Under the pieces are notes generated by a model, which saw nothing but the letters and a program-made list of their open reading frames with translations, was not told the origin of the DNA and did not search any database. The translations under genes were made by a program, and so were the position numbers. Positions 7,666 to 54,815 of a stretch of 64,000 nucleotides of DNA are shown here, piece after piece; within the stretch, counting starts at the first letter, position 1, and every line of letters begins with the position of its first letter. This DNA comes from Nocardia sp. BSTN01 (lineage in GTDB: Bacteria; Actinomycetota; Actinomycetes; Mycobacteriales; Mycobacteriaceae): NCBI RefSeq assembly GCF_015354405.1, contig NZ_JADKYP010000021.1, positions 41,784 to 105,783 on the forward strand, in the 5' to 3' direction.

Positions 7666-8541
7666 TCATACCCCTGCCGGGTGGGCGTGGGACAGTTCCG
7701 CCAGTGCGGACCGAAGGTCGTCGACGATCTCGGCGGTGTCCGGGGCGGGTACGTCCTGCCAGCCCGGGCCTGCCAGCAGGACGCGGGCGCCGCGGTCGGC
7801 GCAGGTGCGCACGGCCGAGAGGAGGGCGGTCGATTCCTGCTGTGACCACAGCACCGCGACCGAGTCCGGCGCGCCGCGATCGAGGGCGTCGCCGAGGGCG
7901 GGGGTGGGGACGTTGGGGCCGAGCATGGTGGCCGGAACGTCACGCTCGGCGAGGGCCGCGCGCAACACCTCGAGTGGCAGGGAGTGCGCCTCACCGCTGG
8001 TGCAGGCGAGCAGGACGGGGGTGGCGGGTGCGTCGGCCGGGGGCGGGACCGCGCGGTGGAGCGCGGCCGTGATGCACCAGGACAGCAGGTGTTCGACGTC
8101 GATGCACCCGATGCCCGCCCCTTGCCGCTGGACGATCTCGGCGAAGGCCGGGCGGCACAGCCGATCCCAGGTGTCGACCACGCCGAAGGCGCGAATGTGG
8201 GCGAGCAGCAGCGACTGCAGTGTGGTGGGGTCGGAGGCGAAGGCGGCTTCGAGGAGTGACGCGTGGTCTCCGGCGACCGGCAGGGGTCCGCGCACGGACT
8301 CGGCCGCTCGTGCCGGGCTCGATCCGCCTCGCACGAGCACGACCATGCGCTCGAGCCGGGCGATATCGGCCTCGGAGTAGAGGCGGTGGCGACCGCGCCG
8401 ATGCTGGGAGGGGCCGATGCCGTAGCGCTGATTCCAGCTGCGCAGGGTCGCGGTGGGGATGCCGATGCGCTCCGCGACGGTGCGTACCGAGAATCCGGTC
8501 GCGTCGTTGTCGGGAGGCGATGCATCGGACATGACGATCAT
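7666..8541 (-). CDS. MerR-type regulator with B12-binding domain (CarH/LitR-like)
   Basis: The protein of about 291 residues has a MerR helix-turn-helix (FSVRTVAERIGIPTATLRSW, then RGRHRLYSEADIARLERM) at residues 17-85. A helical B12-cap region carries EHLLSWC, and the C-terminal cobalamin-binding fold has the signature GEAHSLPLEVL. Its E-x-H supplies the presumed lower-ligand histidine. CarH/LitR proteins use adenosylcobalamin as a photosensor: they repress carotenoid and photoprotection genes in the dark and fall off DNA in light. The adjoining lipocalin, photolyase and crt genes fit that role. I chose ATG 8541 because GAAAGG lies 4 nt upstream; 8532 and 8565 are alternatives. Confidence 0.88.
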   Translation of the reverse strand: MIVMSDASPPDNDATGFSVRTVAERIGIPTATLRSWNQRYGIGPSQHRRGRHRLYSEADIARLERMVVLVRGGSSPARAAESVRGPLPVAGDHASLLEAAFASDPTTLQSLLLAHIRAFGVVDTWDRLCRPAFAEIVQRQGAGIGCIDVEHLLSWCITAALHRAVPPPADAPATPVLLACTSGEAHSLPLEVLRAALAERDVPATMLGPNVPTPALGDALDRGAPDSVAVLWSQQESTALLSAVRTCADRGARVLLAGPGWQDVPAPDTAEIVDDLRSALAELSHAHPAGV

Positions 8542-8629: not shown

Positions 8630-8651
8630 GCATCGATTACGCATCGATTGC
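8630..8651 (+). promoter_or_regulatory. 11-bp tandem repeat operator, lipocalin-photolyase promoter
   Basis: Two direct repeats, GCATCGATTAC and GCATCGATTGC, abut with an exact 11-bp period. A plausible -10 hexamer TAGGAT lies at 8654-8659, directly after the second copy, about 45 nt before the lipocalin GTG. The same layout occurs at 16008-16029 and 16162-16183. Eleven-bp direct repeats are the known binding architecture of Thermus CarH. I infer that the adjacent CarH-like regulator binds here. Confidence 0.75.
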
Positions 8652-8704
8652 TGTAGGATCGTCAGTGTCATCGAACCCATGCTCATCGAACGGAGGAGTC
8701 GCAG

Positions 8705-9409
8705 GTGCTCGAACATCGTTCGAAGGTAGATCGGCCCGGTGGCTTCGACGGGAAGGTGGCGGGAGCGCTGACCGGCGCCCTCCGCCGCGTGACCGCGTTC
8801 GCTGCGGCAGCGATGCGCCCGGCCCGGCTGGCAGGTGTGGCCGTCGCGGCGATGGTCGTGTTCGGAGCCGTCGCGGCGCCCGCCGGTGCGAGTCCGGCGG
8901 CCGGTCCGGCTCCCGTTCCCGCGCTGGATCTGAGCCGTTATGTCGGAACGTGGTACCAGGTCGCCGCAGTTCCTCAGTATTTCAATCTCGTCTGCGCCCG
9001 CGATACGCGCGCCGAATACGCGGCACTGCCGAACGGTGATGTGTCGGTGCACAATTCGTGCACCACGTGGTCGGGTGCGAACAACGAGATCCAGGGTGCG
9101 GCGCGCGCGGTCGATCCGGTGACGGGAGCGCAATTGCGTGTGGCGTTCCCGGGAGTCCCGACGCAGGAAAGCCTGGACGGTCCGCCCAACTATGTCGTGA
9201 CCGCACTCGGGCCGGACTACTCCTGGGCCCTCGTCACAGACCCCTACCGGATCTCCGGATTCGTGCTCTCCCGCACGCCCGCACTGGATGCGGATCAGTG
9301 GAACCGCGTCGTCGCGGCGATCGTGGCCGCCGGGGAGCAGCCCTGCCTGTACCTGACCTCGCCGGTGACCGGTGGGCGTGGCGACATCACCCCGCTGTGC
9401 CGGCTGTGA
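8705..9409 (+). CDS. blc: Lipocalin (Blc-like), secreted or membrane-anchored
   Basis: The 234-residue protein has an N-terminal hydrophobic segment at about residues 38-62 (RPARLAGVAVAAMVVFGAVA). The lipocalin signature LSRYVGTWYQVAAVP follows, then a beta-barrel of normal length (NGDVSVHNSC; NYVVTALGPDYSWALV). Bacterial lipocalins bind hydrophobic ligands at the envelope and are often light- or stress-induced alongside photolyase. GTG 8705 is preceded by GGAGGAG with 6 nt spacing. The signal segment starts unusually late, so a later start inside the first 35 codons is possible. Photolyase follows after 47 nt on the same strand. Confidence 0.85.
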   Translation: MLEHRSKVDRPGGFDGKVAGALTGALRRVTAFAAAAMRPARLAGVAVAAMVVFGAVAAPAGASPAAGPAPVPALDLSRYVGTWYQVAAVPQYFNLVCARDTRAEYAALPNGDVSVHNSCTTWSGANNEIQGAARAVDPVTGAQLRVAFPGVPTQESLDGPPNYVVTALGPDYSWALVTDPYRISGFVLSRTPALDADQWNRVVAAIVAAGEQPCLYLTSPVTGGRGDITPLCRL

Positions 9410-9456
9410 GCCCGAGTACGAGCCATGGCAAGTCCGGTGAGTGGAGGTGAGAAGCG

Positions 9457-10779
9457 ATGGGTGTGGCGGTAGCTCTGTTCACTCGTGATCTACGGGTTCA
9501 CGACAATCCGATGCTGACCGCGGCGCAGCGTGCCGGAGATGCGGTGGTTCCACTGTTCATCCTCGACGAATCGTTGGTCACCGGCGCGGAGGCCGCACCC
9601 AACCGGGTGCGATTCCTCGCCGCGGCGCTGGACGAACTCGACGGCGAATTGCGCACACGCGGTGGGCATCTCGTTCTACGGCGCGGCAAGGTTGTCGACG
9701 AGGTCGAACGGATCGTCGCCCAGACGCAGGCGGAGTCGGTCCACCTCGCGGCCGAAGTCAGCTATTACGGCAAACGACGCGAGTCGGCCCTGCGTGACAG
9801 GCTCGAACCGCACGGTTGCCAGGTGCATACGCACGCTGCCACCGTGACCAGTGTGGACCTCGATGCGATCGAGCCGAGCACCGGACGCGATCATTTCGCG
9901 ATCTTCACGCCGTACTTCCGGCGCTGGGAAAGCGCCCGCCATCGGCGTCCCCTGCCGCCGCCCGCAGACCTCGAGGTGCCGCGCCTGGACGGCGAGCAAC
10001 CGGGTCTCGACAAACTCCGCACCGTGCGGTCCTCACCGGACCTGCGCGTCGGCGGCGAGACGACCGGGCGAAAGATGTTGCGCCGCTGGTTGTCCGATCC
10101 GGTCACCGCCTATGACGATGCCAACGACGATCTCGCCGCCGATGCCACCTCACATCTGTCGCCGTATTTGCATTTCGGATGCCTGTCGGCCGCGGAGGTG
10201 GTGTCGCGTCTGGACATGTCGGACCCGGGCGCGCACAGTTTCGCCCGGCAACTGGCCTGGCGCGACTTTCATCATCAGGTGCTGGCGGCCCGCCCCGCGG
10301 CGGCGTGGTCCGATTACCGCTCGGGCCCGGTCGAGATCCGCGAGGATGAGCAGGCCTTCGAGGCGTGGACGCACGGTCGCACCGGTTTCCCGATCGTCGA
10401 CGCGCCGATGCGCCAGCTGCGTGACGAAGGGTGGATGCCGGGGCGCGCGCGGCTGATCACCGCATCGTTTCTGGCCAAAACGCTGCGGCTGGATTGGCGA
10501 ATCGGCGCAGCCCAGTTCCGGTACTGGCTGGTCGACGGTGATGTGGCGAACAACCAGATGAACTGGCAGTGGGTCGCGGGCACCGGAACCGACACCCGCC
10601 CCAATCGCATGCTCAATCCACTGCGGCAAGCGCACCGTTTCGATCCGGAGGGTGAGTACGTCCGCCGCTGGCTACCCGAACTCGCCCACCTGTCCGGCGC
10701 GGCGGTGCACCGCCCGTGGCGCGAGGACATCGACGATGCGACCTATCCGGCGCCGATCGTGGAAGTGCCCGGCATGTAA
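9457..10779 (+). CDS. phrB: Deoxyribodipyrimidine photolyase
   Basis: This enzyme repairs UV-induced cyclobutane pyrimidine dimers with blue light. The 440-residue protein has the N-terminal photolyase antenna domain (VALFTRDLRVHDNP). The C-terminal FAD domain shows the class I signatures SPYLHFGCLS, LAWRDF, WTHGRTGFPIVDA and NNQMNWQWVAGTGTD. Length and motifs are complete, so it should be active. A GGAGG lies upstream of ATG 9457. It stands in the lipocalin-photolyase-epimerase run under the 11-bp-repeat promoter, as in other LitR/CarH-controlled photoprotection clusters. Confidence 0.95.
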   Translation: MGVAVALFTRDLRVHDNPMLTAAQRAGDAVVPLFILDESLVTGAEAAPNRVRFLAAALDELDGELRTRGGHLVLRRGKVVDEVERIVAQTQAESVHLAAEVSYYGKRRESALRDRLEPHGCQVHTHAATVTSVDLDAIEPSTGRDHFAIFTPYFRRWESARHRRPLPPPADLEVPRLDGEQPGLDKLRTVRSSPDLRVGGETTGRKMLRRWLSDPVTAYDDANDDLAADATSHLSPYLHFGCLSAAEVVSRLDMSDPGAHSFARQLAWRDFHHQVLAARPAAAWSDYRSGPVEIREDEQAFEAWTHGRTGFPIVDAPMRQLRDEGWMPGRARLITASFLAKTLRLDWRIGAAQFRYWLVDGDVANNQMNWQWVAGTGTDTRPNRMLNPLRQAHRFDPEGEYVRRWLPELAHLSGAAVHRPWREDIDDATYPAPIVEVPGM

Positions 10780-10803
10780 TCGATGCGGTGATCAGGAGAC
10801 GGT

Positions 10804-12276
10804 ATGCGATGTGTGGTGTTCGGTGCGACCGGCTACATCGGCGGCCGCTTGGTGCCCGAGCTACTGGCCGCGGGCCACGAGGTGCGGGTGCTGGCCCGCA
10901 CACCGGCCAAACTCGATGACGCCGCCTGGCGCGACAGCGTGGAAGTCCTGCGCGGTGATGTGCTCTGCGCCGACGATGTGGCCGCGGCCTGCGCCGAGGC
11001 GGACGTGCTCTATTACCTGGTGCATTCGCTGACGCGAACCGATTTCGACGATGTCGACCGCCGCGCGGCGACATTGGTGGCCGAGCAGGCGGCGCGGGCG
11101 GGGATACGCCGGATCGTGTATCTGGGCGGCATCGTTCCGCCGGGTCAGCGACTGTCGCGGCACCTGTCCTCCCGTGCCGAGGTCGGGCGAATCCTGCTGG
11201 CGGGATCGGTTCCGGTGATAGCGATGCAGGCCGCGGTGATCATCGGATCCGGTTCGGCCAGTTTCGAAATGCTGCGGTATCTCACCGAACGGCTGCCGGT
11301 GATGGTCACGCCGCGGTGGGTGCGCAACCGCATCCAGCCGATCGCGGTGCGCGATGTGCTGTACTACCTGACGCGGGCGGCCGAACTACCGCCGGATGTG
11401 CGCGGCGCCTTCGATATCGGCGGCCCGGATGTGCTCACCTACGAACAGATGATGCGTGACTACGCCGAAGTGGCGCGGCTGCCTCGGCGCGTAATCGTCC
11501 CGGTCCCGGTGCTCACGCCGTGGCTGTCGGCGCAATGGGTCGATCTCGTCACCCCGGTGCCGAAGGCGATCGCGGTGCCGCTGATGGAATCGCTGGTCAA
11601 CGACGTTGTCTGCGAAGACCACGCGATCGCCGAGCGCATCCCCGACCCGGCGCGCGGATTGATCGACTACCGCACCGCGGTCGAACTGGCGTTGACGCGC
11701 ATTCGCGACCTCGACGTTCCCACCCGCTGGTCGGACGCCGACCAGCTCGGTCGTGAACCGTCGTCGCCGCTGCCCACCGATCCCGCGTGGTCGGGCGGTT
11801 CCCTCTATGTCGATGTGCGAGAACGCCACACCCGCGCCGATCCGGCGACGCTGTGGGCGGTGATCGAATCCATCGGCGGCGAATACGGCTGGTATTCGTT
11901 TCCGCTGGCGTGGTCGTTGCGCGGCTGGATCGACCGGCTGGCCGGCGGCGCCGGATTGCGCCGGGGAAGAAGGGATCCGCATCGGCTGCACGCCGGAGAG
12001 GCGCTGGACTGGTGGCGAGTGGAACGCATCGAGCGACCGCGCATCCTTGTGTTGCGTGCGGAAATGCGGGTGCCGGGGCGGGCGTGGCTGGAGCTCCGCG
12101 TGGACTCCGCCGCGCGGGGCACGGTCTACCGTCAGCGGGCCGTCTTCGACCCGCACGGCCTGGCCGGTCACCTCTACTGGAAGGCCATCGCTCCCTTCCA
12201 CGCGCTCATCTTCGGCGGAATGACCCGTAATATCACCGGAGCGGCGGAAGAGGCTGTGTCCCAGCCGGTTTCATAG
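10804..12276 (+). CDS. NAD(P)-binding epimerase-like protein with DUF2867 domain
   Basis: The 490-residue protein starts with an atypical/extended SDR domain (VVFGATGYIGGRLVPELLAAGH, residues 3-24) running to about residue 290. It ends in a DUF2867-type SRPBCC-like domain (EYGWYSFPLAWSLRGWIDRL; VYRQRAVFDPHGLAGHLYWKAI). This two-domain family recurs in light-regulated photolyase/litR clusters, but its reaction is unknown. ATG 10804 is preceded by AGGAGACGGT, and photolyase ends 24 nt upstream, so the two are probably co-transcribed. Its last 44 nt overlap the oppositely oriented crtB 3' end. Confidence 0.85.
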   Translation: MRCVVFGATGYIGGRLVPELLAAGHEVRVLARTPAKLDDAAWRDSVEVLRGDVLCADDVAAACAEADVLYYLVHSLTRTDFDDVDRRAATLVAEQAARAGIRRIVYLGGIVPPGQRLSRHLSSRAEVGRILLAGSVPVIAMQAAVIIGSGSASFEMLRYLTERLPVMVTPRWVRNRIQPIAVRDVLYYLTRAAELPPDVRGAFDIGGPDVLTYEQMMRDYAEVARLPRRVIVPVPVLTPWLSAQWVDLVTPVPKAIAVPLMESLVNDVVCEDHAIAERIPDPARGLIDYRTAVELALTRIRDLDVPTRWSDADQLGREPSSPLPTDPAWSGGSLYVDVRERHTRADPATLWAVIESIGGEYGWYSFPLAWSLRGWIDRLAGGAGLRRGRRDPHRLHAGEALDWWRVERIERPRILVLRAEMRVPGRAWLELRVDSAARGTVYRQRAVFDPHGLAGHLYWKAIAPFHALIFGGMTRNITGAAEEAVSQPVS

Positions 12277-13204
12277 CGCCGCCGACGCGACTGCGAGACC
12301 AGACGGCAGCGGCGAGACCTCGGGTTCCCACCGCGGCGCGTCGTGGAATCCCGACGCGGGCACGATGAACGAAGATGTCGAAGTCCAGGCTCTCGATACG
12401 ATCCAGGATTTCCGAATAGAGGGTGAGCGCGGCGGCGACGCACGGCCGCGACCGCGGGTCGAGCAGGGCGATACCGGCACGGGCATAGTCGTAGATGCCG
12501 CGAGTGTGGGAGTGCTGGGTGATCAGGGCACGCCGGACTCGGGCGTCGGTGCGGCGGTGCGCCTGGCACCACAGCAACAGATCCCGGTCGACGCCGTGGG
12601 CGGCCAGTTCGTCCGCCGGCAGATAGACCCGGTCCCGGACCAGGTCCTCGTCCACATCGCGCAGAAAGTTGGTCAGCTGGAAGGCTTTTCCGAGCGCGGC
12701 GGCGTACGGGGCGGCCTCGTCCACCGGGCACACCGTGCCCAGCACCGGTAGCACCTGTAATCCGATGACCTCGGCGGAACCGTAGACGTAGCGGTCCAGC
12801 GCGCGCCGATCCGGATAGTCGGTAACCGTGAGATCCATGCGCATCGACTCCAGGAACGAGTCGAACAGCGACGCAGCGATGCGGTAGGAGTGTGCCGTGT
12901 GCAGGACGGCCGGGAGGACCGCGTCGGCATCGGCGTCCTCGGTGGTGAACTGCGCGGCCAGCGCGTCCAGTCGCGCCGCGCGTTCGGAGATCGGGCGGCG
13001 CGGGTCGATGTCGTCGAGGAGGTCGTCGGCGCGGCGGGCGAAGCCGTAGAGCGCGTGGATCGCCGGACGCTGATCGGGGGCGAGTAACCGGGTGGCGAGG
13101 AAGAAGGTCTTGCCATGGCGCGCGTTGAGGGTGCGACAGGCGCGATAGGACCGCTGCAGCTGGGGATCGGCGCGGCCGTTGTCGAGAAAGGCGATGGGGG
13201 ACAT
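12233..13204 (-). CDS. crtB: Phytoene synthase (squalene/phytoene synthase family)
   Basis: CrtB condenses two GGPP into phytoene, the first committed carotenoid step. The 323-residue protein shows both aspartate-rich Mg-binding motifs, RADDLLDDID at residues 58-67 and FLRDVDEDLVRDRVYLP in the second half. The basic Pro-rich C-terminal tail of about 40 residues looks non-conserved. It reads across the stop of the convergent epimerase gene by 44 nt, so the stop may have moved. ATG 13204 lies 10 nt after the crtI stop; its ribosome site (GGAAA) is weak, which suggests translational coupling. Confidence 0.92.
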   Translation of the reverse strand: MSPIAFLDNGRADPQLQRSYRACRTLNARHGKTFFLATRLLAPDQRPAIHALYGFARRADDLLDDIDPRRPISERAARLDALAAQFTTEDADADAVLPAVLHTAHSYRIAASLFDSFLESMRMDLTVTDYPDRRALDRYVYGSAEVIGLQVLPVLGTVCPVDEAAPYAAALGKAFQLTNFLRDVDEDLVRDRVYLPADELAAHGVDRDLLLWCQAHRRTDARVRRALITQHSHTRGIYDYARAGIALLDPRSRPCVAAALTLYSEILDRIESLDFDIFVHRARVGIPRRAAVGTRGLAAAVWSRSRVGGAMKPAGTQPLPPLR

Positions 13205-13214
13205 GAGTTTCCGA

Positions 13215-14753
13215 TCAGCGAATGATGGCGGCGGTCGAAGTGGAAAGGGCGGACGCGCGTCGGCGTGCGGGCTGTGCGGAAGGCATCGGTCCGGTGACGC
13301 GGTCCGCGGCGAGCCGGCCGGAAATCAGGACAGGAGGTATGCCGACACCGGGGACGGTGCTGCCGCCCGCCAGCACCACGTTCTCGAGTCCGCGGATCAT
13401 GTTGGCCGGGCGGAAGGGGCCGGTCTGGGTGACGGTGTGGGCCAATGCGAAGGGGCTGCCTGCCAGCATGCCGCGCCGCGCCCAGTCGGCGGGCGTAGTG
13501 ATGTGGAGCAGCCAGGGATCGGTCAGTGGGATCGGCAAGCGATCCTGAACGGTGGTCAGAACTTCCTGCGCGTAGGCGGGGCCGAAGCGGTCCCAATTGA
13601 TCGGTCCCCGTACGGCATTCGGTACCGGCGCGAGGATGTAGAGCAGGTCGCGTCCGGGTGGGGCCAGGCTCGGGTCACCCGCGGTGGGCCTGGTGACCAG
13701 CAGCGACGGATCTGTCATGACGCTGCCGCGAGCGATGATGTCGTCGAAGGCTTCGTCCCAGGCGCGGCCGAAGAGCAGATGGTGGTGCGCGGCCCGGGGC
13801 ATCGCCTCGCAGCCGACGTGCAGCACGACCGCGGACGGTGCCGCTGTGGGACGCAGCGGACGGCGCGGGGAATGGCCCGTCAGGCGGTAGGTGTCGGACA
13901 ACTCGGTGGTGAGCACGACCGCATCGCAGGGGATGCGCTCGCCGGTGTCGGTGACGATCGTGCGGATCCGGGATCCGGTGCGGTCCAGGCTCGCCACGGC
14001 GGTGTCGTAGCGGATCTCGACGCCGGCTTCGTGCGCCGCCGCGGCGAGGGCGTCGGGTAGCGCTCGCATCCCGCCGCGCGGGAACCAGACGCCGGCGATC
14101 GTGTCCATATAGGCGATCACCGCGTATGCCGCTATCGCTCGGCTGGGCGCGACGCCGGCATACAGGGATTGAAAGGTGAACAGCCGCCGCAGTTCCGGAT
14201 CGTCGATGTGCTGTGCGACCGCGCGGTCCCAGCGACGGAATCCTCCCATTGCCGCCAGCCGGCCGAGCGAGGGACGCAGCGCCGAGAACGGCGAATCGAA
14301 ATTCGCCCCGATGAACGAGTCGAACTCTGTCCGGTAGAGCTGGATCAGCCACGCGCGCAATCGCCGGTATCCCGCCGCCTGGCCGGCTCCGGCGAACTCG
14401 GTGATCGCCGCGGCCATGCGTTCGGCGTCGCTGTGGACCTCGAGCTGGCGTCCGTCGGCGAAATGGGCCCGATAGGCCGGATCCACCGGCACCAACGAGA
14501 GGCGGTCGTCCATCCGCTCACCGACCGCGGCGAACGTCTCCTCGACCAGGTGTGGCATCGTCAGCACGGTCGGGCCGGTGTCGAGGCGGTAGCCGTCCAC
14601 ATCGACGCGACCGGTGCGGCCACCGGGGACCGAATCACGTTCCAGCACGGTGACTGTGCGGCCGCGGCCGGCCAGGTGCAGCGCCGCGGACAGTCCGGCC
14701 AGCCCGGCTCCGACTACGACGACGCGGTTGCTGAGACCGATGGTCGTGCGCAT
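13215..14753 (-). CDS. crtI: Phytoene desaturase
   Basis: CrtI is an FAD enzyme that introduces conjugated double bonds into phytoene, giving lycopene or a similar acyclic carotene. The 512-residue protein has the dinucleotide motif VVVGAGLAGLSAALHLAGRG at residues 12-31 and PGGRTG soon after. The carotenoid-desaturase C-terminal signature NVVLAGGSTVPGVGIPPVLI is also present. ATG 14753 is read from an AGGAGGAAT ribosome site that overlaps the crtE stop codon, so crtE and crtI are coupled. No cyclase gene (crtY/crtL type) is visible in the window, so the local pathway would end at an acyclic product. Confidence 0.95.
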   Translation of the reverse strand: MRTTIGLSNRVVVVGAGLAGLSAALHLAGRGRTVTVLERDSVPGGRTGRVDVDGYRLDTGPTVLTMPHLVEETFAAVGERMDDRLSLVPVDPAYRAHFADGRQLEVHSDAERMAAAITEFAGAGQAAGYRRLRAWLIQLYRTEFDSFIGANFDSPFSALRPSLGRLAAMGGFRRWDRAVAQHIDDPELRRLFTFQSLYAGVAPSRAIAAYAVIAYMDTIAGVWFPRGGMRALPDALAAAAHEAGVEIRYDTAVASLDRTGSRIRTIVTDTGERIPCDAVVLTTELSDTYRLTGHSPRRPLRPTAAPSAVVLHVGCEAMPRAAHHHLLFGRAWDEAFDDIIARGSVMTDPSLLVTRPTAGDPSLAPPGRDLLYILAPVPNAVRGPINWDRFGPAYAQEVLTTVQDRLPIPLTDPWLLHITTPADWARRGMLAGSPFALAHTVTQTGPFRPANMIRGLENVVLAGGSTVPGVGIPPVLISGRLAADRVTGPMPSAQPARRRASALSTSTAAIIR

Positions 14754-14764
14754 GAGATTCCTCC

Positions 14765-15892
14765 TCAGGGGTGGCGGGTGACACAGATGAGCCCCATGCC
14801 GTCGAGTACGCGGCGCATCGGTTCGGGCAGGCTCGCACTCTCGGCCGCGTGCCGCGCCTCGCCGATGCGGTCGCTGATCATCGCCTCGATCCGGGCGGGC
14901 GCTCCGGAGGCGGTGATCACAGCGCGCAATCTGTCGGTGGCGCCGGCATCGACGACCGGTGCCGACAGCAGGGTGTCGAGTTCGCTGCGGGCGGCGGGTT
15001 CGGCGAGTTGCCGGGCGGCGATCACCACGGTGGTCGCCTTGCGCTGAGTCAGGTCTCCGTCACCGGGTTTGCCTGTGGCATCGACGCTTCCGAAGACTCC
15101 CAGCAGGTCGTCGCGCATCTGGAACGCCTCGCCCACCGCGCGTCCATACCGGCTCAGCGCCGACAGGGTCGGCTCGTCGCATCCGGCCATCGCCGCGCCG
15201 AGTTCGAGTGGCCGGCGCACGGTGTAGTTGCCGGATTTCGCCCGTGCCAGCGCCAGTACCTGCCCGAAATCCGGTTCGGTGCGGACGTCGTTGAGCAGAT
15301 CGCCGAACTGCCCCACCGCCAGCTCGATACGCATCGCGTCGAAGCGGGGCCACACGCGGTAGAGGCAATCGGGGCGAATTCCGCTGTCGCGCAGCATCTT
15401 ATCCGCCCAGACCAGGCAGATATCGCCGAGAAGCACGGCCGCCGAGTCGCCGAAACGAGCGGCGTCGCCGGGCATTCGACGATCCCGGTGCGCGTCTGCG
15501 AAGGCGACGTGCCCGGTGGGTGCGCCGCGGCGCAGCGCCGACTCGTCCATCACATCGTCCTGGATCAACGCGAAGGCGTGGACCAGTTCCAGCGCGGCGG
15601 CGGCTCGCAGCGCGGCGGCATCCGGGGCCTCGCCACACAACCAGCCGATGTACATGAACGTCGATCGCAGGCATTTGCCGCCTGCCACGTATCGGCGTGC
15701 GATGTCGTCGACCGCGATCCCGTGAACGGCGCCGATCCGGTTCTCGCGCAGGAAGGTGGCCAGTTCGGTCAGCACTCGATCCTGCACCGCGGCGCGCCAC
15801 CGTGCGACACCATCCGCCACGTTCACCGGGTGATCGGCCAGAATCGTTGCGGGGGAACACAATCGGCGTGAATTGTCGATGGTGACGCTCAC
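14765..15892 (-). CDS. crtE: Geranylgeranyl diphosphate synthase
   Basis: This trans-isoprenyl diphosphate synthase supplies GGPP for CrtB. It has the first aspartate-rich motif QDDVMD, preceded by ELVHAFAL, and the second DD motif MRDDLLGVFG. The lysine/arginine IPP-binding segment GGKCLRSTFMY is also present. I prefer GTG 15892, because GAGGAG lies 5 nt upstream; the GTG two codons earlier (15898) overlaps that ribosome site. It is the first gene of the crtEIB operon. A promoter with an 11-bp tandem repeat lies about 115 nt upstream. Confidence 0.94.
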   Translation of the reverse strand: MSVTIDNSRRLCSPATILADHPVNVADGVARWRAAVQDRVLTELATFLRENRIGAVHGIAVDDIARRYVAGGKCLRSTFMYIGWLCGEAPDAAALRAAAALELVHAFALIQDDVMDESALRRGAPTGHVAFADAHRDRRMPGDAARFGDSAAVLLGDICLVWADKMLRDSGIRPDCLYRVWPRFDAMRIELAVGQFGDLLNDVRTEPDFGQVLALARAKSGNYTVRRPLELGAAMAGCDEPTLSALSRYGRAVGEAFQMRDDLLGVFGSVDATGKPGDGDLTQRKATTVVIAARQLAEPAARSELDTLLSAPVVDAGATDRLRAVITASGAPARIEAMISDRIGEARHAAESASLPEPMRRVLDGMGLICVTRHP

Positions 15893-16007
15893 GTCCACTC
15901 CTCGGTTCGGCGGTACGGGTGCCGGCTGGGTCTGCGAGGCGGGGATCGGGACCGCGTATTGCGGCCCGCCTGGGGATCCTCCCTCGACGTCCGAACCCCA
16001 GGCTACC

Positions 16008-16029
16008 GCAAACGATGCATAAATGATGC
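16008..16029 (-). promoter_or_regulatory. 11-bp tandem repeat operator, crtEIB promoter
   Basis: Read on the minus strand, GCATCATTTAT and GCATCGTTTGC follow one another with an 11-bp period. They are followed by a candidate -10, TAGCCT (plus-strand 16000-16005), 7 nt after the second GCATCG, exactly as in the lipocalin promoter. The untranslated leader to crtE would be about 100 nt. The shared layout with 8630-8651 and 16162-16183 argues for a common regulator. Confidence 0.75.
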
Positions 16030-16161
16030 AGTGAAAGCTGTATCGATCTGCCGAGGCTGATTGTGTATCGCGCAGCCGGGGCGAGCATGGTTGATCGACT
16101 AGCGCGAGGTAGGCGCGGTTCGCAGGTTGCCACCGCGATCAGTTGAAGCCAAGGGCAAATT

Positions 16162-16183
16162 GCATCGTTTATGCATCGAATTT
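16162..16183 (+). promoter_or_regulatory. 11-bp tandem repeat operator, promoter of secreted protein gene
   Basis: GCATCGTTTAT and GCATCGAATTT are direct repeats with an 11-bp period; TATTCT at 16188-16193 is the likely -10 box. The site faces the secreted-protein gene at 16225 and lies back to back with the crtE operator 130 bp away. The 15899-16224 gap therefore holds two divergent promoters with matched repeats and no other gene. Confidence 0.72.
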
Positions 16184-16224
16184 CGGGTATTCTGGCTGAG
16201 ACGAACCAATCAGAGGAGGCCCTC

Positions 16225-16722
16225 ATGTCTCGTTCTTCCGCGCGTCGCGCGCTGTTCGCTCTCGTCTCCGGCGGCGGTATCGCATTGACCTCGGCCGCGT
16301 TGCCGGCCGCGCCGGCCCAAGCCGACTCCACCAGTTGCCCGGCGCCGGGCGCCACATCGGTCGCCGATACGGGCGCCGATGCCGCGTGTTCGGCCACCAG
16401 TACCGGCGGGAGCGCGGCTGCCGCCTACGGCATCAACGGTACGGCTTCCGCCGACGCGGGGCCGACGAGCTTGTCGCTGGCCATCGCACAAGGCGGTGGC
16501 ACCGCGCGGTCCGCCTCGGGGCCGTGGTCGGGGCCCGCGGCGATCGCGGTCGGTTCCGGCGCGACCGCCGACCTGTCCGGGGTCCGGCCGGGTCTGGCCA
16601 TCGGCATCGCAGGACCGGGCGCCACGGTCACCGTCTCCGGCGTCGGGACCCCGGAATGTACCGGCGGCCCGGGCTTCGCGGGCGATTTCCAGACCTTCCA
16701 GGGCTGCCTGTCGATGCGGTGA
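16225..16722 (+). CDS. Secreted Ala/Gly-rich protein of unknown function
   Basis: The 165-residue protein has a clear Sec signal peptide (SRSSARRALFALVSGGGIAL, cleavage after PAQA at about residue 34). The mature part is small, Ser/Gly/Ala-rich and turn-rich, with four cysteines (SCPAPGA, AACSAT, ECTGG, GCLSM). I recognise no catalytic motif. ATG 16225 is chosen over an in-frame ATG at 16171 because AGGAGG lies 5 nt upstream and the upstream codons overlap the promoter. Its promoter carries the same tandem repeat as the carotenoid and photolyase promoters, so it is probably light-induced; a role in binding or packaging pigment at the envelope is speculation. Confidence 0.8.
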   Translation: MSRSSARRALFALVSGGGIALTSAALPAAPAQADSTSCPAPGATSVADTGADAACSATSTGGSAAAAYGINGTASADAGPTSLSLAIAQGGGTARSASGPWSGPAAIAVGSGATADLSGVRPGLAIGIAGPGATVTVSGVGTPECTGGPGFAGDFQTFQGCLSMR

Positions 16723-24483: not shown

Positions 24484-25002
24484 ATGTTTCCGAGCGAAGG
24501 GGAGTCGCAACCGGGGTCGGGGCCGCTGTTCGGCGTGGCCGCGCACGCCGAGGGCGTCCCGCGGCCTGATCTGAGGGCCGTCGTCCGGGAACGCTCGCAT
24601 GCCGCGATTCTGTGCTTCCGCGGTGAGGCCGACACCGCGGCGCTGGCCGTGTGGCGAGAGCACATCCGTTCGGGTGCGGCGGTCGCGCGCCGCGCCGGCG
24701 GTCATCTGGTGATCGATACGACGCGATTGAGGTTTCTCGGCTGGCGCGCATTGGCGGTCCTCGCCGAGGAGGCCGACCGGCTTCCGGTCGATCTTGCGCT
24801 CGTCAGTACCAGTCCGACGGTCGCCCGCATGGTGGACGCCGGCGATATCGATGCCCATGTGCCGCTGTACGGCACCGTCGTGGAGGCACTGGGGCCGGTG
24901 GGGCCCGTCGGCCCCCCGCAGCCGGCATCGGGTGCCCCGTCCGTGTCGTCTCGCGGTCGCAGCCGGCCCTCGGTCCGGACCGCCTGTCCGAAAGCCGAGT
25001 GA
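24484..25002 (+). CDS. STAS-domain protein (anti-sigma-factor-antagonist-like)
   Basis: The 172-residue protein has one STAS domain at about residues 35-135 (AAILCFRGEADTAALAVW; LVIDTTRLRFLGWRALAVLA). The segment where classical antagonists carry the phosphorylated DSSG serine reads LGWRA, so it probably cannot be switched by the usual kinase phosphorylation. The C-terminus is a disordered Pro/Ser/Arg tail. ATG 24484 follows GGAGGAG. The CheB-type gene starts 9 nt later, so the product likely works with the methylesterase and methyltransferase that follow. Confidence 0.8.
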   Translation: MFPSEGESQPGSGPLFGVAAHAEGVPRPDLRAVVRERSHAAILCFRGEADTAALAVWREHIRSGAAVARRAGGHLVIDTTRLRFLGWRALAVLAEEADRLPVDLALVSTSPTVARMVDAGDIDAHVPLYGTVVEALGPVGPVGPPQPASGAPSVSSRGRSRPSVRTACPKAE

Positions 25003-25011
25003 TCGCGCCTC

Positions 25012-26049
25012 ATGGACGAATCCCTGGTCGGCGACCGGCCCGAATCGGAGGCCGGGGCGACGCGGCCACCACAGGATCTGATCGTCGCCGGTGCGTCCGC
25101 CGGCGGTGTGGAAGCGCTGCGCGAATTCGTCGGCGGGCTACCGCCGGATCTCGACGCCGCGGTCGCGGTTGTCCTGCATATGCCGCCGCACGGCGCGAGC
25201 GCGCTGCCCGCCATTCTGAACCGGACCGGACCGCTTCCGGCCGTCGCCGCGGCCGACGGGATGCCACTGCGGTCCGGTGTGGTGTACGTGGCGGTTCCCG
25301 ATCGCCATCTGGTCGTCACGTCGACCCATCTGCATCTGTCGCGGGGGCCCACCGAGAACGGTCATCGGCCGGGCGTGGACGCGTTGTTCCGGTCCGCGGC
25401 CATGTCGTGGGCGCCGCGGGTGGCGTGCGTCGTGTTGTCCGGGACCTTGGACGACGGGACCGCGGGCGCCGCATTGATGTCCCACCGTGGGGGTGTGGTG
25501 GCCGCGCAGGAGCCGCACGACGCGCTGTACCGTGGTATGCCGCAGAGCGTATTGGACTCCGTCGCAGTCGATGTGGTGCTCCCGGCGCGGGAGCTCGGCA
25601 AGGCCGTCGCCGAACGGCTCCGCACTCGGCACCGCGCGCCCGACCCGCCGGACGCGTCCGACCTGCAGCGTCTGGAAGCGAGTATCGACGCCGGCGGCGT
25701 ACCCGGTGACGAAGGCGTGGCGGCGATGGCCCGGCCGTCCGGACTCACCTGCCCGGACTGCAACGGTGTTCTCTATGTGCTCGAAGACAGCGGCCGCTAC
25801 CGGTGCCGCGTCGGCCACGCGTGGACCGCCGAGGCTCTGCTGATCCAGCAGAAGGTCGAGGTCGACAAGGCGCTGTGGACGGCGCTGCGCGCTCTGGAGG
25901 AGAAACAGCGGCTGGCCGAGCGGATGACCGAGGATGCCGCCCGCCACGGCGACGACCGGCTGGCCCAGCGTTATCGGGATCAGGGCGCCGAGCAGGCGGC
26001 CGCGATCGAAACGCTGCGTAAGCTGCTCGTCGACCGTTCCACGAACTGA
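25012..26049 (+). CDS. CheB-type methylesterase with C-terminal zinc-ribbon
   Basis: The 345-residue protein has the CheB catalytic domain with the expected triad: S29 in GASAGG, H56 in VLHMPP and D148 in LSGTLDDGT. It lacks the N-terminal receiver domain of chemotaxis CheB. At about residues 245-275 there is a Cys-rich ribbon (CPDCNG; CRVGHAW), followed by a helical tail. CheB enzymes demethylate or deamidate receptor glutamates. No methyl-accepting receptor or flagellar gene lies in the window, so it probably acts in a non-chemotactic signalling module with the CheR-PAS protein 20 nt downstream. Confidence 0.87.
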   Translation: MDESLVGDRPESEAGATRPPQDLIVAGASAGGVEALREFVGGLPPDLDAAVAVVLHMPPHGASALPAILNRTGPLPAVAAADGMPLRSGVVYVAVPDRHLVVTSTHLHLSRGPTENGHRPGVDALFRSAAMSWAPRVACVVLSGTLDDGTAGAALMSHRGGVVAAQEPHDALYRGMPQSVLDSVAVDVVLPARELGKAVAERLRTRHRAPDPPDASDLQRLEASIDAGGVPGDEGVAAMARPSGLTCPDCNGVLYVLEDSGRYRCRVGHAWTAEALLIQQKVEVDKALWTALRALEEKQRLAERMTEDAARHGDDRLAQRYRDQGAEQAAAIETLRKLLVDRSTN

Positions 26050-26069
26050 AGGAGCGGTAGGTTGATCGG

Positions 26070-27935
26070 GTGGACGAGGACAAGGCACCCGGCAGTGCCC
26101 GCGGATTCGAGGAGATCCTCCAGTATCTGAAGGAAGCTCGCGGATTCGATTTCACCGGCTACAAACGCAGCAGCCTGATGCGACGCGTGGACCGGCGCAT
26201 GTCCCAACTCGGCGTGAGCGATTACGTCGAATACCTGGACGTGCTGCAGGCCAATGCGGACGAATTCGTCGCGCTGTTCAACACCATTCTGATCAACGTG
26301 ACGGGATTCTTCCGCGATCCCGACGCATGGGACTATCTCCAGTCCGACATCATTCCCACGATGCTGGGCGAGCGGGGCCCCGAGGAACCGATTCGGGTCT
26401 GGTGCGCAGGATGTGCCTCCGGCGAGGAGTCCTACAGCCTGGCCATCGTGCTGGCGGAGGCGATGGGCATCGAGGAATTCCGGCAGCGGGTCAAGATCTA
26501 TGCCACCGATGTCGATGAGGAGGCCCTGAGCGTCGCGCGGCACGCCACCTACACCGAGAAGGAGATCAGCCCGCTCGGCGCGGACCTGATCCAGCGGTAT
26601 TTCGAACCGGCCTCGGGGCGATACGGATTCCGCAAGGATCTGCGGCGCTCGGTGATTTTCGGTCGCAACGACCTGGTACAGGATGCGCCGATCTCCCGGA
26701 TCGATCTACTGGCGTGCCGGAATACACTGATGTATTTCAACGCCGAGACGCAGACCAAGGTGCTCGACAAATTCCATTTCGCCCTATCGCAGCGGGGACT
26801 GCTGTTCTTGGGCAAGGCCGAGATGTTGCTGAGCCACAGCCGCATCTTCGACGCCGTGGACCTCAAGCGACGGATATTCCGCAAGGTTCCGGCCGCGCGG
26901 GTCGATGTCGGCTCCGTGTTCGGGCGCACCCTGATGCATGATCGCCGCGACACCGACCAGATCGAATCCCTGTGCGCCCTGGCCTTTTCCGCGGGCCCGG
27001 TCGCGCAGGTGGTGCTCGGCCGAGACGATGTGATCGTCTTGGCCAACGACCAGGGTAAGCATCTGTTCGGCCTGACGGACCGGGATGTGGGCCGGCCGCT
27101 GCGTGATCTCGAATTGTCCTACCGCCCTTTGGAATTGCGCGGCTATATCGATCAAGTGCGCGCCGACCGCCGGGCGGTGCGGGTCAAGGATGTCGAGTGG
27201 CAGCGCGGGCCGGGGGAAGTGCTGGCACTCGAGGTGCACGTTTCGCCGCTGCTGGCAGACGATGTGGCCATCGGGATCTCACTGGTCTTTCACGATGTCA
27301 GCGCTACGCGCCGGTTGCTGTCCGAACTGCACCATGCCAACGAACAACGGGAGTCGGCCTACGAGGAATTGCAGTCGACCAACGAGGAACTCGAAACCAC
27401 CAACGAGGAATTGCAGTCGACCGTCGAGGAACTCGAGACGACCAACGAGGAACTGCAGTCCACGAACGAGGAACTCGAGACCACCAACGAGGAACTGCAG
27501 TCGACCAATGACGAACTGCAGACGATCAATACCGAATTGCGGGAGCGCAGTACCGAACTCGACGACGTGAACGAATTCTTCGCCTCGATCATGGGTTCCT
27601 GGCACGCGGGTGTCGCCGTGGTCGACACCTCCATGCGAATCGTGGTCTGGAACGCGGGTGCGGAAGATCTGTGGGGCCTGCGGCCCGAGGAGGCCGAGGG
27701 CGAACATCTGCTCAACCTCGATATCGGCCTTCCGGTCTCGGAATTGCGGCCGGTGGTGCGGCCCGCGCTGTCCGACGCCGCCTACGAGCGCGAGGTTCGT
27801 CTCGACAGTGTCAACCGGCGCGGCCGGGCGGTCGTGATCCGGGTGGTCTGCACATCGCTCACCGACCGCAGCGGTAAACCGTCGGGCGCGATTCTGGTCA
27901 TGGAGCCGGTGGAGCCGGAGGCCGCGGTCAGCTGA
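26070..27935 (+). CDS. CheR-type methyltransferase fused to heptad coiled coil and PAS domain
   Basis: The 621-residue protein starts with CheR helical and SAM-binding domains (FDFTGYKRSSLMRRVDRRM; SAM motif VWCAGCASGEESYSLAI; IDLLACRNTLMYF) to about residue 275. A PAS-like segment covers about 300-415, ten near-perfect heptads run from 432 to 501, and a second PAS domain covers about 505-600 (WHAGVAVVDTSMRIVVWN). It methylates glutamates of an unidentified partner, with sensory input through PAS. GTG 26070 follows GGAGCGG with 10-nt spacing. Its last 8 nt overlap the convergent STAS-HATPase gene. Confidence 0.9.
   Translation: MDEDKAPGSARGFEEILQYLKEARGFDFTGYKRSSLMRRVDRRMSQLGVSDYVEYLDVLQANADEFVALFNTILINVTGFFRDPDAWDYLQSDIIPTMLGERGPEEPIRVWCAGCASGEESYSLAIVLAEAMGIEEFRQRVKIYATDVDEEALSVARHATYTEKEISPLGADLIQRYFEPASGRYGFRKDLRRSVIFGRNDLVQDAPISRIDLLACRNTLMYFNAETQTKVLDKFHFALSQRGLLFLGKAEMLLSHSRIFDAVDLKRRIFRKVPAARVDVGSVFGRTLMHDRRDTDQIESLCALAFSAGPVAQVVLGRDDVIVLANDQGKHLFGLTDRDVGRPLRDLELSYRPLELRGYIDQVRADRRAVRVKDVEWQRGPGEVLALEVHVSPLLADDVAIGISLVFHDVSATRRLLSELHHANEQRESAYEELQSTNEELETTNEELQSTVEELETTNEELQSTNEELETTNEELQSTNDELQTINTELRERSTELDDVNEFFASIMGSWHAGVAVVDTSMRIVVWNAGAEDLWGLRPEEAEGEHLLNLDIGLPVSELRPVVRPALSDAAYEREVRLDSVNRRGRAVVIRVVCTSLTDRSGKPSGAILVMEPVEPEAAVS
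27363..27572 (+). repeat. 21-bp tandem coding repeats encoding ten heptads
   Basis: The DNA repeats in 21-nt units that encode EELQSTN, EELETTN and variants in alternation, ending with DELQTIN, TELRERS and TELDDVN. The phase is exactly one heptad per unit, so the protein forms a regular left-handed coiled coil linking the methyltransferase to the PAS domain. Units 1-8 are nearly identical at DNA level, so copy number may vary between strains. Confidence 0.9.
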
Positions 27936-28716
27936 CCTGCCGGTTCCGCGTGGTCGCCAGCGTCGCCCACACCACCTTGCCGGTCGGCCACCGCGGCGCG
28001 CACCCCCAGGCCGACGCCAGTTCCGCCACGATGTGCAGGCCGTGCAGCCGGCGTCCGGCGGAGCCCGGTTCGGGCTCGCGCAGCACGGCTTCGTGCGGGT
28101 CGGGATCGGCGATCGCGATGGTGAGCAGGTCTTCGCGATATTCCAGCCGCACGTCGATATCGGGGACGCCGGTGAAATGGCCGTGCAGGTCGGCGTTGTC
28201 GATGAATTCGGTGGCGATGATCTGCGCGGCCTCGCTGATCTCGGCGATGCCCCACTCGACGCAGACCTCATCGATGAGCCGGCGCACCCGATGGCCGGTG
28301 ACCGGCGACAACGCCATGGTCATGGCGGCCCGACGCCGGATCGGCGGCTCGGCCGCCGCGGCGACGGCGGCGGCGACGCTCGGTTGCACCGCCAGGAAGC
28401 GGCGGATCGCGCTGCGCCGGAGCCGGCGGCGTAGTTCGTCGTCCTCGGCGACCAGGAAAATGGGCACACACGGCCAGTTCGCGGTGCGCAACCAGGCGCT
28501 GGTGAACGCGGTGAGGACGGTTTCGGACGCGATTGCCATGCGGTCGACGCACACGATGACCGCACGCGGCTGTTCGACGACGAACTTCACGAGGTCGTCG
28601 GTGAATCGGCGATACGTCACGGCGTCGAGCGTGATATCGGGGTCGAGCACCACACAGCGGTCGATTTCCGTCGGTTCCCAGCAGATGGGCGGAACGGTAG
28701 TCATGGCGAGTCGCAT
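27928..28716 (-). CDS. STAS-like domain fused to HATPase anti-sigma-type kinase domain
   Basis: The protein of about 262 residues has an N-terminal STAS-like half (CVVLDPDITLDAVTYRRFTD; AVIVCVDRMAIASETVLTAF). The C-terminal half is an RsbW/SpoIIAB-like ATPase with the N-box TEFIDNA and a G2-like GRRLHGLHIV. The G1 box reads ADPDP instead of DxGxG, so ATP binding may be weakened. It would bind sigma factors or STAS partners. It converges on the CheR-PAS gene with an 8-nt overlap. The ATG at 28716 was chosen for length; 28704 is an alternative, and neither has a good ribosome site. Confidence 0.72.
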   Translation of the reverse strand: MRLAMTTVPPICWEPTEIDRCVVLDPDITLDAVTYRRFTDDLVKFVVEQPRAVIVCVDRMAIASETVLTAFTSAWLRTANWPCVPIFLVAEDDELRRRLRRSAIRRFLAVQPSVAAAVAAAAEPPIRRRAAMTMALSPVTGHRVRRLIDEVCVEWGIAEISEAAQIIATEFIDNADLHGHFTGVPDIDVRLEYREDLLTIAIADPDPHEAVLREPEPGSAGRRLHGLHIVAELASAWGCAPRWPTGKVVWATLATTRNRQVS

Positions 28717-53548: not shown

Positions 53549-54766
53549 ATGCCTATGACGGGCGGGACGGGGGTCGGTCTCTCAGCCGATCTGATGATTG
53601 TTTGGCGTGCGCTACATCGGCGCTTCGGATCCGGCACCACAGTGACGTCGGTTCGAGTCGGCCCTTTGAGCGTGGCTGAGCGCGAAGCGTTGGCAGACCT
53701 GCTGGGCATGGCAATCCTGCCGCCCGAGGTGTGCAGCATTCGTGTCGATCAGCTGGACTCCGCATTGACAGAGTCCGTGGGGATGACGGCTCATCAGGTT
53801 GTGAAAGAGCTCGTCGGACCGATCGAGAATCGGTCGGCCGCTCGTGCAGAGCAGGCGGGTCGGCGGCGGGAGTTGTGGAATTGGCTGGATACTCATCCCG
53901 TCGTTCGCTCACAACCGGCGCTGGGGGAGTGGGCCCACGCCATGCGACGCGCCGGCATCATCGGGGGATCGGTGGACACAACGCGGGACCTGTTGGCCGA
54001 GGCCCTGGCAGTGCTGCACGCTATACCCGCACCAGGGACGCCGCTCCCGGTCTTCGCGGAGCAGACGCTGCGTGACCCACATGGCTTGGACAACGGAACT
54101 CGGTTGCAGGCGATTGTTTTTCGTGGGCTGGCAGCAATCCACGACTGTGATGTGCCTCGGGATGCCGCCCGGGTGCGCAGTTTCTGGGAGACGGCAGGCG
54201 TTGCCGACGACGAACTCTCGTCCACCGTTCTCGCGGCCGGACTCCGTGTGGCCGGATCCGGATCGGTGCTCGAAGCGATGCTCGCCGTCTGCGCAGCCGC
54301 AGGCTCGGCTGCCTCGCTGACGCTGCAGCAGGTGCGCACTGCACAGCAACTCGATGTCGTGCCGGAAGTCGTTCGGGTGGTCGAGAATCCGAGCGTGCTC
54401 GCGAGCGCGTTGCGGCGCTTCGGACCCTCCTGCGCGCCGATCGTGTGCACCGCCGGCTGGCCGTCCAGCGCAGGTATTCGGCTCCTGGATCTCCTGTCCA
54501 CCGCGGGTGCCCGGCTCGAATATCACGGCGATTTCGACGGTGAGGGTTTGCGGATTGCGGCACACGTCATCGCGCGGACCGGTGCGCATCCTTGGCGCAT
54601 GGGTAGCGCGGACTACCTGGCGTCGGTCGGTCCGGGCGGGCCCCCGGTGGGCCGGGTATCGGAGGCTCCCTGGGATAGCGATCTGGCCTCCCATATGCGT
54701 CGAACCGGGGTTTCGGTGCCGGAGGAACGGGTCGTGGAGATCCTCCTGGACGATCTGGCGCTGTAG
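53549..54766 (+). CDS. jetD: Wadjet type II nuclease subunit JetD (TIGR02679 / DUF2399)
   Basis: This is the TOPRIM-type nuclease of the Wadjet anti-plasmid system. The 405-residue protein shows the JetD/TIGR02679 pattern: E279 in RVVENPSVL, then CTAGWPSSAGIRLLDLL, then YHGDFDGEGLRIA with acidic residues D328, D330 and E332. The N-terminal half is the helical DUF3323-like region (RRRELWNWLDTHPVVRSQPA). It cuts closed circular DNA trapped by the JetABC loop extruder (family knowledge). ATG 53549 lies 8 nt after TATACC, so a leaderless start is possible. It precedes jetA by 49 nt and is oddly first, where jetD usually comes last. Confidence 0.93.
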   Translation: MPMTGGTGVGLSADLMIVWRALHRRFGSGTTVTSVRVGPLSVAEREALADLLGMAILPPEVCSIRVDQLDSALTESVGMTAHQVVKELVGPIENRSAARAEQAGRRRELWNWLDTHPVVRSQPALGEWAHAMRRAGIIGGSVDTTRDLLAEALAVLHAIPAPGTPLPVFAEQTLRDPHGLDNGTRLQAIVFRGLAAIHDCDVPRDAARVRSFWETAGVADDELSSTVLAAGLRVAGSGSVLEAMLAVCAAAGSAASLTLQQVRTAQQLDVVPEVVRVVENPSVLASALRRFGPSCAPIVCTAGWPSSAGIRLLDLLSTAGARLEYHGDFDGEGLRIAAHVIARTGAHPWRMGSADYLASVGPGGPPVGRVSEAPWDSDLASHMRRTGVSVPEERVVEILLDDLAL

Positions 54767-54815
54767 TTGTCGGTGCACGGCGTTACCGTGGCTGCTGATC
54801 GAGGGGAGGCGCCGC

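Follow-up and report, generated by a model that had tools for sequence, protein, structure and literature searches.

Tandem GCATC repeats with an 11-bp period as the putative operator of a Gln-type CarH/LitR-like regulator in Nocardia

The closest described systems to the one presented here are the CarH proteins of Thermus thermophilus and Bacillus megaterium (class I LitR), which combine a MerR DNA-binding domain with a cobalamin-binding domain carrying a Glu-His (EH) pair and an axial His, have carotenoid targets, and bind tandem 11-bp direct repeats (PMC9304148) lying over promoter elements. The published operators consist of three or four nnnnTnnACAn units, some with fewer perfect units (PMC9304148), and repression in the dark with release in the light is the precedent for CarH/LitR proteins (PMC9304148, PMC6739363). 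CarH has been defined by the motif Wx9EH plus a B12 motif, the former being termed critical for adenosylcobalamin (AdoCbl) binding and function and, in the same review, conserved without exception in the CarH homologues studied (PMC8156234); the Trp of this motif, Trp131, stacks on the adenosyl group (PMC10442372). The signature has also been given as GxxW, EH, GxxH and GxxxP (PMC11796333). The present article concerns a 64,000-nucleotide stretch of DNA from Nocardia sp. BSTN01 (the window), in which the gene of a CarH/LitR-like protein—referred to below as carH—is accompanied by three two-copy repeats of an 11-bp unit with a GCATC core (Table 1). The locus shares with the CarH systems the domain pair, the EH pair and axial His, the tandem 11-bp repeats at promoters and the carotenoid genes; it differs in its unit (TGCATCRWTTA), in having two copies, in the Gln replacing the Trp of Wx9EH, and at residue 34 of the regulator.

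Further described systems resemble the locus in part. LitR of Streptomyces coelicolor, likewise actinobacterial, acts via the sigma factor LitS (PMC12705666). CarA of Myxococcus xanthus is a CarH paralogue that also lacks Wx9EH and represses crt genes, but its relief requires CarS (PMC8156234). The class II LitR proteins of Pseudomonas, PplR1 and PmlR2, are LitR-type repressors of light genes including photolyase, yet they have no full B12 domain, a LOV protein as partner and the site T(G/A)TACA-N12-TGTA(C/T)A (PMC9758184). Concerning the gene company, lpc-phr-epi (lipocalin, photolyase, epimerase) has already been drawn alongside actinobacterial crt clusters in a figure legend (PMC5401885), and such company is therefore not new; the subject of that paper is, however, the MarR-type CrtR, and the portion of its text examined contains no GCATC operator. 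The literature search, which left subscription papers mostly uncovered and thus does not prove absence, returned no paper on a GCATC operator or a Gln-type (Q-type) CarH.

The three repeats of the window have an exact 11-bp period, as described in an earlier note made from the letters of this DNA, and a -10-like hexamer begins 24, 24 and 26 nt after the first base of operators 1, 2 and 3, respectively. The genes that the note had placed behind them—lipocalin-photolyase, crtEIB and a secreted protein, the last being the DUF6764 protein—were identified as well, the putative promoters being assigned from the hexamer matches. It should be pointed out that the loose pattern GCATCRN5GCATCR is weak evidence by itself, with eight matches in the 7.79-Mb genome of the window, three of them the window sites, versus three for the reversed-pattern control. 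The 21-bp consensus (TGCATCRWTTA twice), derived from the sites of relatives with the three window sites included, matched at up to three mismatches exactly three times genome-wide, at the window sites only, and its control not at all. In 40 loci—stretches of up to 20 kb around regulator homologues in relatives—there are 44 GCATCR pairs at 11 bp versus 0–9 at each other spacing from 6 to 40. The named Nocardia loci (the best 80 of 180) contain 94 pairs at 11 bp, followed by 25 at 16 bp, and of the GCATC pairs in their intergenic DNA 99 have the 11-bp spacing, no other spacing from 6 to 21 exceeding seven. Strict sites, the window included, are intergenic in 94 of 97 cases, intergenic DNA making up 14.7% of bases. 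Finally, spacers were picked by their flanking genes, irrespective of the motif, from 13 near relatives including the window, yielding the carH-lipocalin spacer in 11 species and the crtE-DUF6764 spacer in eight; the core bases are invariant (10/10) at each of the three sites, while outside the cores 35 of 146 positions are invariant in the former spacer and 121–122 of 315 in the latter. A chance repeat is ruled out by the spacing peaks, the consensus scan with its empty control and this spacer footprint.

As to the anatomy of the site, 68 of the 94 sites in intergenic DNA are followed, at no more than 300 bp, by a gene on the same strand, namely that of the lipocalin (38), crtE (9), the DUF6764 protein (8), the photolyase (6) or others (7), the first three accounting for 55 of the 68. 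Gene calls in the loci came from a simple script based on codon usage, some frames being miscalled (e.g. in L261). The three sites inside genes were left aside and near-copies removed, which reduced the direct sites from 68 to 55 and the others from 26 to 24. In the 55 de-duplicated direct sites the repeated unit, present twice, reads TGCATCRWTTA, with no third 11-bp unit; upstream of the first unit the information is limited to a preceding T (44/55). The hexamer TANNNT begins 23–27 nt from the site start in 51 of the 55, and G occupies position 23 in 38 of the 55. In single relatives (L250) a site faces a UGT-type glycosyltransferase gene. Operator-like sites (at position 1501) also lie 28 and 110 bp ahead of the genes of two similar proteins (158 and 148 amino acids) in L041 and L052, respectively, the former protein having no Pfam match; such motifs are present in other near relatives, and none was found in the genome of the window. 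At the stringency of up to three mismatches, the regulon of that genome looks local, consisting of three promoters.

The site follows the regulator gene through the genus. At E up to 1e-30, 128 of 151 Nocardia genomes have the regulator, and the motif occurs in 115 of these carriers versus 4 of the 23 non-carriers. A scan of whole Nocardia-like genomes, proposed in the earlier note, gave the motif in 119 of the 151 genomes and its reversed control in two; within the genome of the window, the loose pattern stood at 8 against 3. In three of the four motif-positive non-carriers all matches have G before the second GCATC, a position mostly occupied by T or C in real sites, and four of the five such matches lie inside called genes. 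In the count over the 151 genomes, three that one of the two tallies did not name were taken to be G022, G428 and G430 by comparison with the other. Several Nocardia genomes have a second CarH-like paralogue next to crtEIB with sites of its own, the genome of the window having a single copy. Because of the 11-bp peak, the gene targets, the placement of the hexamers and this tracking of the regulator gene, the repeats are very probably the operator of the neighbouring CarH-like protein, as judged from sequence comparison.

The regulator itself, numbered here from the ATG at 8532, matches Pfam MerR_1 (2e-13) and, below the Pfam gathering score, B12-binding (8.7e-4); the NCBIfam CarH model matches it at 2.4e-18, but with 66 bits versus a cut-off of 400. 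Its closest solved chain is Thermus CarH (1.7e-17, residues 13–275). The genome of the window is near those of Nocardia aobensis and N. cerradoensis, with whose regulators it has 97% identity in this protein. With an N-terminal MerR helix-turn-helix and a C-terminal CarH-related cobalamin-binding-like domain, it belongs to the CarH/LitR family in the broad sense. Trp131 of Thermus CarH aligns to Q137. Among 85 Nocardia rows—the window and 84 homologues of 240–340 amino acids—Q137 is invariant, as are E147 and H148 of the EH element, H183 of GxxH, and G205 and P209 of GxxxP, the Gly of GxxH (G180) being present in 83. In GxxW the Gly is replaced by Val (80) or Ile (5) and the Trp by Gln in every row. 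As for the B12 motif ExHx2G, E181 and H183 are present and P186 occupies the Gly position, where Pro also stands in most rows of the relatives retaining Trp (W-type). The conserved EH pair and axial His suggest that cobalamin binding has been retained, with Gln taking, in an altered pocket, the place of the Trp that CarH stacks on the adenosyl group. Since the Trp element fails, the protein is filed here under the CarH/LitR family and not as a demonstrated AdoCbl photoreceptor; of the earlier label 'CarH/LitR-like photoreceptor', the CarH/LitR-like MerR protein is borne out by Pfam and the Thermus CarH match, whereas, with the Trp of Wx9EH and the Gly of GxxW missing, the photoreceptor is a hypothetical role.

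The evolutionary tree, calculated with column 137 retained for 50 rows (the window and 49 hand-picked from 79 reduced references), places its 33 Q-type rows on one side of a single branch, with support of 100/93 and in all 200 bootstrap trees, so the Q-type rows form, in this sampling, a clade of single origin. The clade adjoins W-type rows of the family f33, which retain the Trp and are, at a guess, Streptomyces relatives. In the locus of one of these (L272) the photolyase and SDR-DUF2867 genes lie beside the regulator gene, and no GCATC repeat at 11 bp is present. One of the Q-type rows, L194, belongs to another family. In other actinobacteria (L195–L198, L200–L208 and L219), His occupies the place of the CarH Trp (Hx9EH); the survey of W-type and His-type residues omitted 10 of 52 loci, for which the gene caller gave no homologue.

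Tandem 11-bp direct repeats at a promoter, the type of site known for CarH, are found in Nocardia, but the published unit in three or four copies is not. In Nocardia intergenic DNA, TnnACA pairs have no 11-bp peak (7, versus 15 at 12 bp), which rules out a classical TnnACA operator there, and the remark of the earlier note that the GCATCr core is unlike the Thermus site agrees with the published core. Its proposal of an actinobacterial consensus, on the other hand, is rejected: the intergenic DNA of 49 loci (~3–4 kb each) from other actinobacterial genera contains no GCATC pair at 11 bp, and the motif was met only in Nocardia, a sister genus and one isolated, unexplained case (genome G046). 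A de novo scan of the same 49 loci for any 11-bp direct repeat gave no peak at 11 bp either (7, versus up to 24 at other spacings). These loci contain three TnnACA pairs at 11 bp, all next to carH in one W-type genus (L220, L223 and L228), which thereby forms a natural counterpart to Nocardia. In the sister genus, of the same family as Nocardia, all three regulator loci have an inverted site ~150 bp ahead of crtE, the other sampled genomes of that genus being without the regulator. The isolated GCATC-type repeat (L269:9057-9073) lies between carH and crtE in another family, and three relatives in that family (L213–L215) have no such repeat near carH.

Within the DNA-binding domain (columns 14–79), the Nocardia residues (85 rows) and the W-type residues (20 rows, 19 of which have letters there) are completely distinct at two columns only, 34 and 51. 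Column 34 has Asn (83) or Thr (2) in Nocardia versus Asp, Glu or Ala in the W-type, and column 51 Leu, His or Tyr versus Arg. Since in Thermus CarH residue 34 is Glu whereas residue 51 is Leu, residue 34 and not residue 51 is the candidate for the changed operator specificity; in the sister genus two of the three rows have Ser at this residue.

What was computed is the motif with its spacing, position and conservation, the joint presence of motif and regulator gene, and the change from Trp to Gln. The reading favoured here, with a probability of roughly 0.7, is that of a Q-type CarH/LitR repressor acting on a recoded two-repeat operator and relieved by light. The CarH/LitR-like MerR protein, probably a head-to-tail dimer or tetramer when bound, would occupy two tandem TGCATCRWTTA units that are offset by one turn of the helix. 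With the hexamers taken as -10 elements, the operator would reach from about -38 to -15; protein bound there would exclude RNA polymerase and repress in the dark, and its release would jointly switch on the lipocalin, the photolyase, carotenoid synthesis and the secreted protein. Direct binding, repression, light as the signal and cobalamin as the chromophore are what we infer. A bolder version, in which the Q clade altered both ends of the switch—the cobalamin pocket by Gln, and the operator to two repeats which a dimer, rather than a tetramer, reads via residue 34 (Asn replacing an acidic residue)—is tentative and rather doubtful; if true, the Gln pocket would mean a different cobalamin, a different photochemistry or a signal other than light, such as oxidation.

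Several findings weigh against a light-relieved repressor of this kind. The Trp of Wx9EH is absent, with Qx9EH instead in all 85 Nocardia rows, and no GCATC repeat was found in the 20-kb locus (L270) of the Q-type L194, so the operator would be younger or narrower than the Gln. The Fisher probability of the association between motif and regulator gene (3e-12) overstates independence, the species being related, and its true strength is lower; 13 of the 128 carriers are without an exact motif match, and one genome without a detected regulator, G359 (a draft of ~1340 contigs), yet has a convincing site ahead of crtI. Furthermore, the 26 intergenic sites that are not direct comprise, besides four without a called gene within 300 bp, 22 (of the 94) that aim at the 3' end of carH, the hexamer being present in 1 of 20 of these after de-duplication. 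The next gene in the carH direction is of the amine-oxidase family in four cases, crtE in four and SDR in three, and these 11 can be read as inverted operators of that gene. Seven of the 22 lie between convergent genes and are not explained by the simple model; antisense control of carH or a relic is possible. These seven, just 3' of carH (L122, L124, L129, L136, L138, L148 and L173), have the hexamer in one case; the convergent neighbour in L122 encodes an epimerase-DUF1731 protein, with a related gene in the other six loci.

The main rival, unlikely though not negligible, keeps the same operator and regulator but makes the latter a CarA-like, B12-independent repressor, relieved by an antirepressor or by another signal (singlet oxygen, redox or a partner photoreceptor). 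The Gln in all 85 rows speaks for it, since in Myxococcus CarA the lack of Wx9EH goes along with B12 independence (PMC8156234), and a class II LitR indeed acts via a LOV partner (PMC9758184). The invariance of E147, H148, H183, G205 and P209 is hard to square with a protein that does not use cobalamin, an argument softened by the fact that CarA, too, retains a B12 motif (PMC8156234). Pfam named no LOV or extracytoplasmic function (ECF) sigma gene among the 20 of the 54 called window genes submitted to it; one of these 20, a CheR protein (26070-27935), does have PAS domains.

It is quite improbable that the repeat is the operator of another co-resident regulator, such as the MarR-type CrtR, with the CarH-like protein a bystander, even though crt genes of Corynebacterium are under CrtR and the CrtR group has been reported in Mycobacterium and Nocardia (PMC6739363). 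The arrangement in tandem 11-bp direct repeats is of the CarH type, and the motif tracks the CarH-like gene across Nocardia and into the second genus, adjoining the crt-linked paralogue as well. MarR dimers usually take palindromes, and a Pfam search of ten genes between 6461 and 18299 showed no MarR gene. Least probable of all is that the repeat serves an alternative sigma factor (e.g. LitS-like) as a core promoter element and is no regulator site: the direct sites are nearly always trailed by a -10-like hexamer and Streptomyces crt genes are read by LitS (PMC12705666, PMC5401885), but the variable hexamer distance (23–27 nt) and the inverted copies ahead of crtE (four Nocardia loci and 3/3 of the sister genus) led to its rejection, with the 11-bp unit common to both copies and the tracking of the CarH-like gene also against it.

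Table 1 Features of the window around the putative operators
Feature	Position	Strand	Details
CarH/LitR-like regulator	7666..8541	-	MerR DNA-binding domain and cobalamin-binding-like domain
Operator 1, GCATCGATTAC-GCATCGATTGC	8630..8651	+	two tandem 11-bp units between the divergent carH and lipocalin genes
-10-like TAGGAT	8654..8659	+	hexamer match; putative lipocalin-phr promoter
Lipocalin gene	8705..9409	+	first behind operator 1; Pfam Lipocalin_2 2.6e-36
DNA photolyase/cryptochrome family gene	9457..10779	+	FAD_binding_7 1.3e-64; NCBIfam matches all under cut-offs
SDR-DUF2867 protein	10804..12276	+	third gene of the likely operon; Pfam
crtB, phytoene synthase	12233..13204	-	SQS_PSY 1.7e-62
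crtI, phytoene desaturase	13215..14753	-	TIGR02734, 490.5 bits, over cut-off 238.1
crtE, polyprenyl (geranylgeranyl) diphosphate synthase	14765..15892	-	polyprenyl_synt 5.5e-43
-10-like TAGCCT	16005-16000	-	hexamer match; putative crtEIB promoter
Operator 2, GCATCATTTAT-GCATCGTTTGC	16029-16008	-	two tandem 11-bp units upstream of crtE
Operator 3, GCATCGTTTAT-GCATCGAATTT	16162..16183	+	two tandem 11-bp units upstream of the DUF6764 gene
-10-like TATTCT	16188..16193	+	hexamer match; putative DUF6764 promoter
Small DUF6764 protein	16225..16722	+	behind operator 3; Pfam 5.4e-12

Judged by their N-termini, both the lipocalin and the DUF6764 protein are predicted to be secreted, and crtE may start at an alternative GTG (15898). 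The 3' ends of crtB and the SDR-DUF2867 gene, which converge, have 44 bp in common (12233-12276). Elsewhere, the window contains a Wadjet system (53672-61572) with consecutive JetD, JetA, JetB and JetC, matched best by the type-2 models, and a run of STAS, CheB, CheR with PAS domains and STAS/HATPase genes (24484-28716; the last match weak), i.e. a Nocardia signalling cassette that includes methylation enzymes of the chemotaxis type.

Regarding the biology of the family, a Qx9EH clade located beside carotenoid and photolyase genes and equipped with an operator of its own would offer a direct test of which parts of the pocket AdoCbl photosensing needs. With the GCATC operator, light switches of the CarH type would have a second DNA code, and Nocardia a searchable marker of a putative light response.

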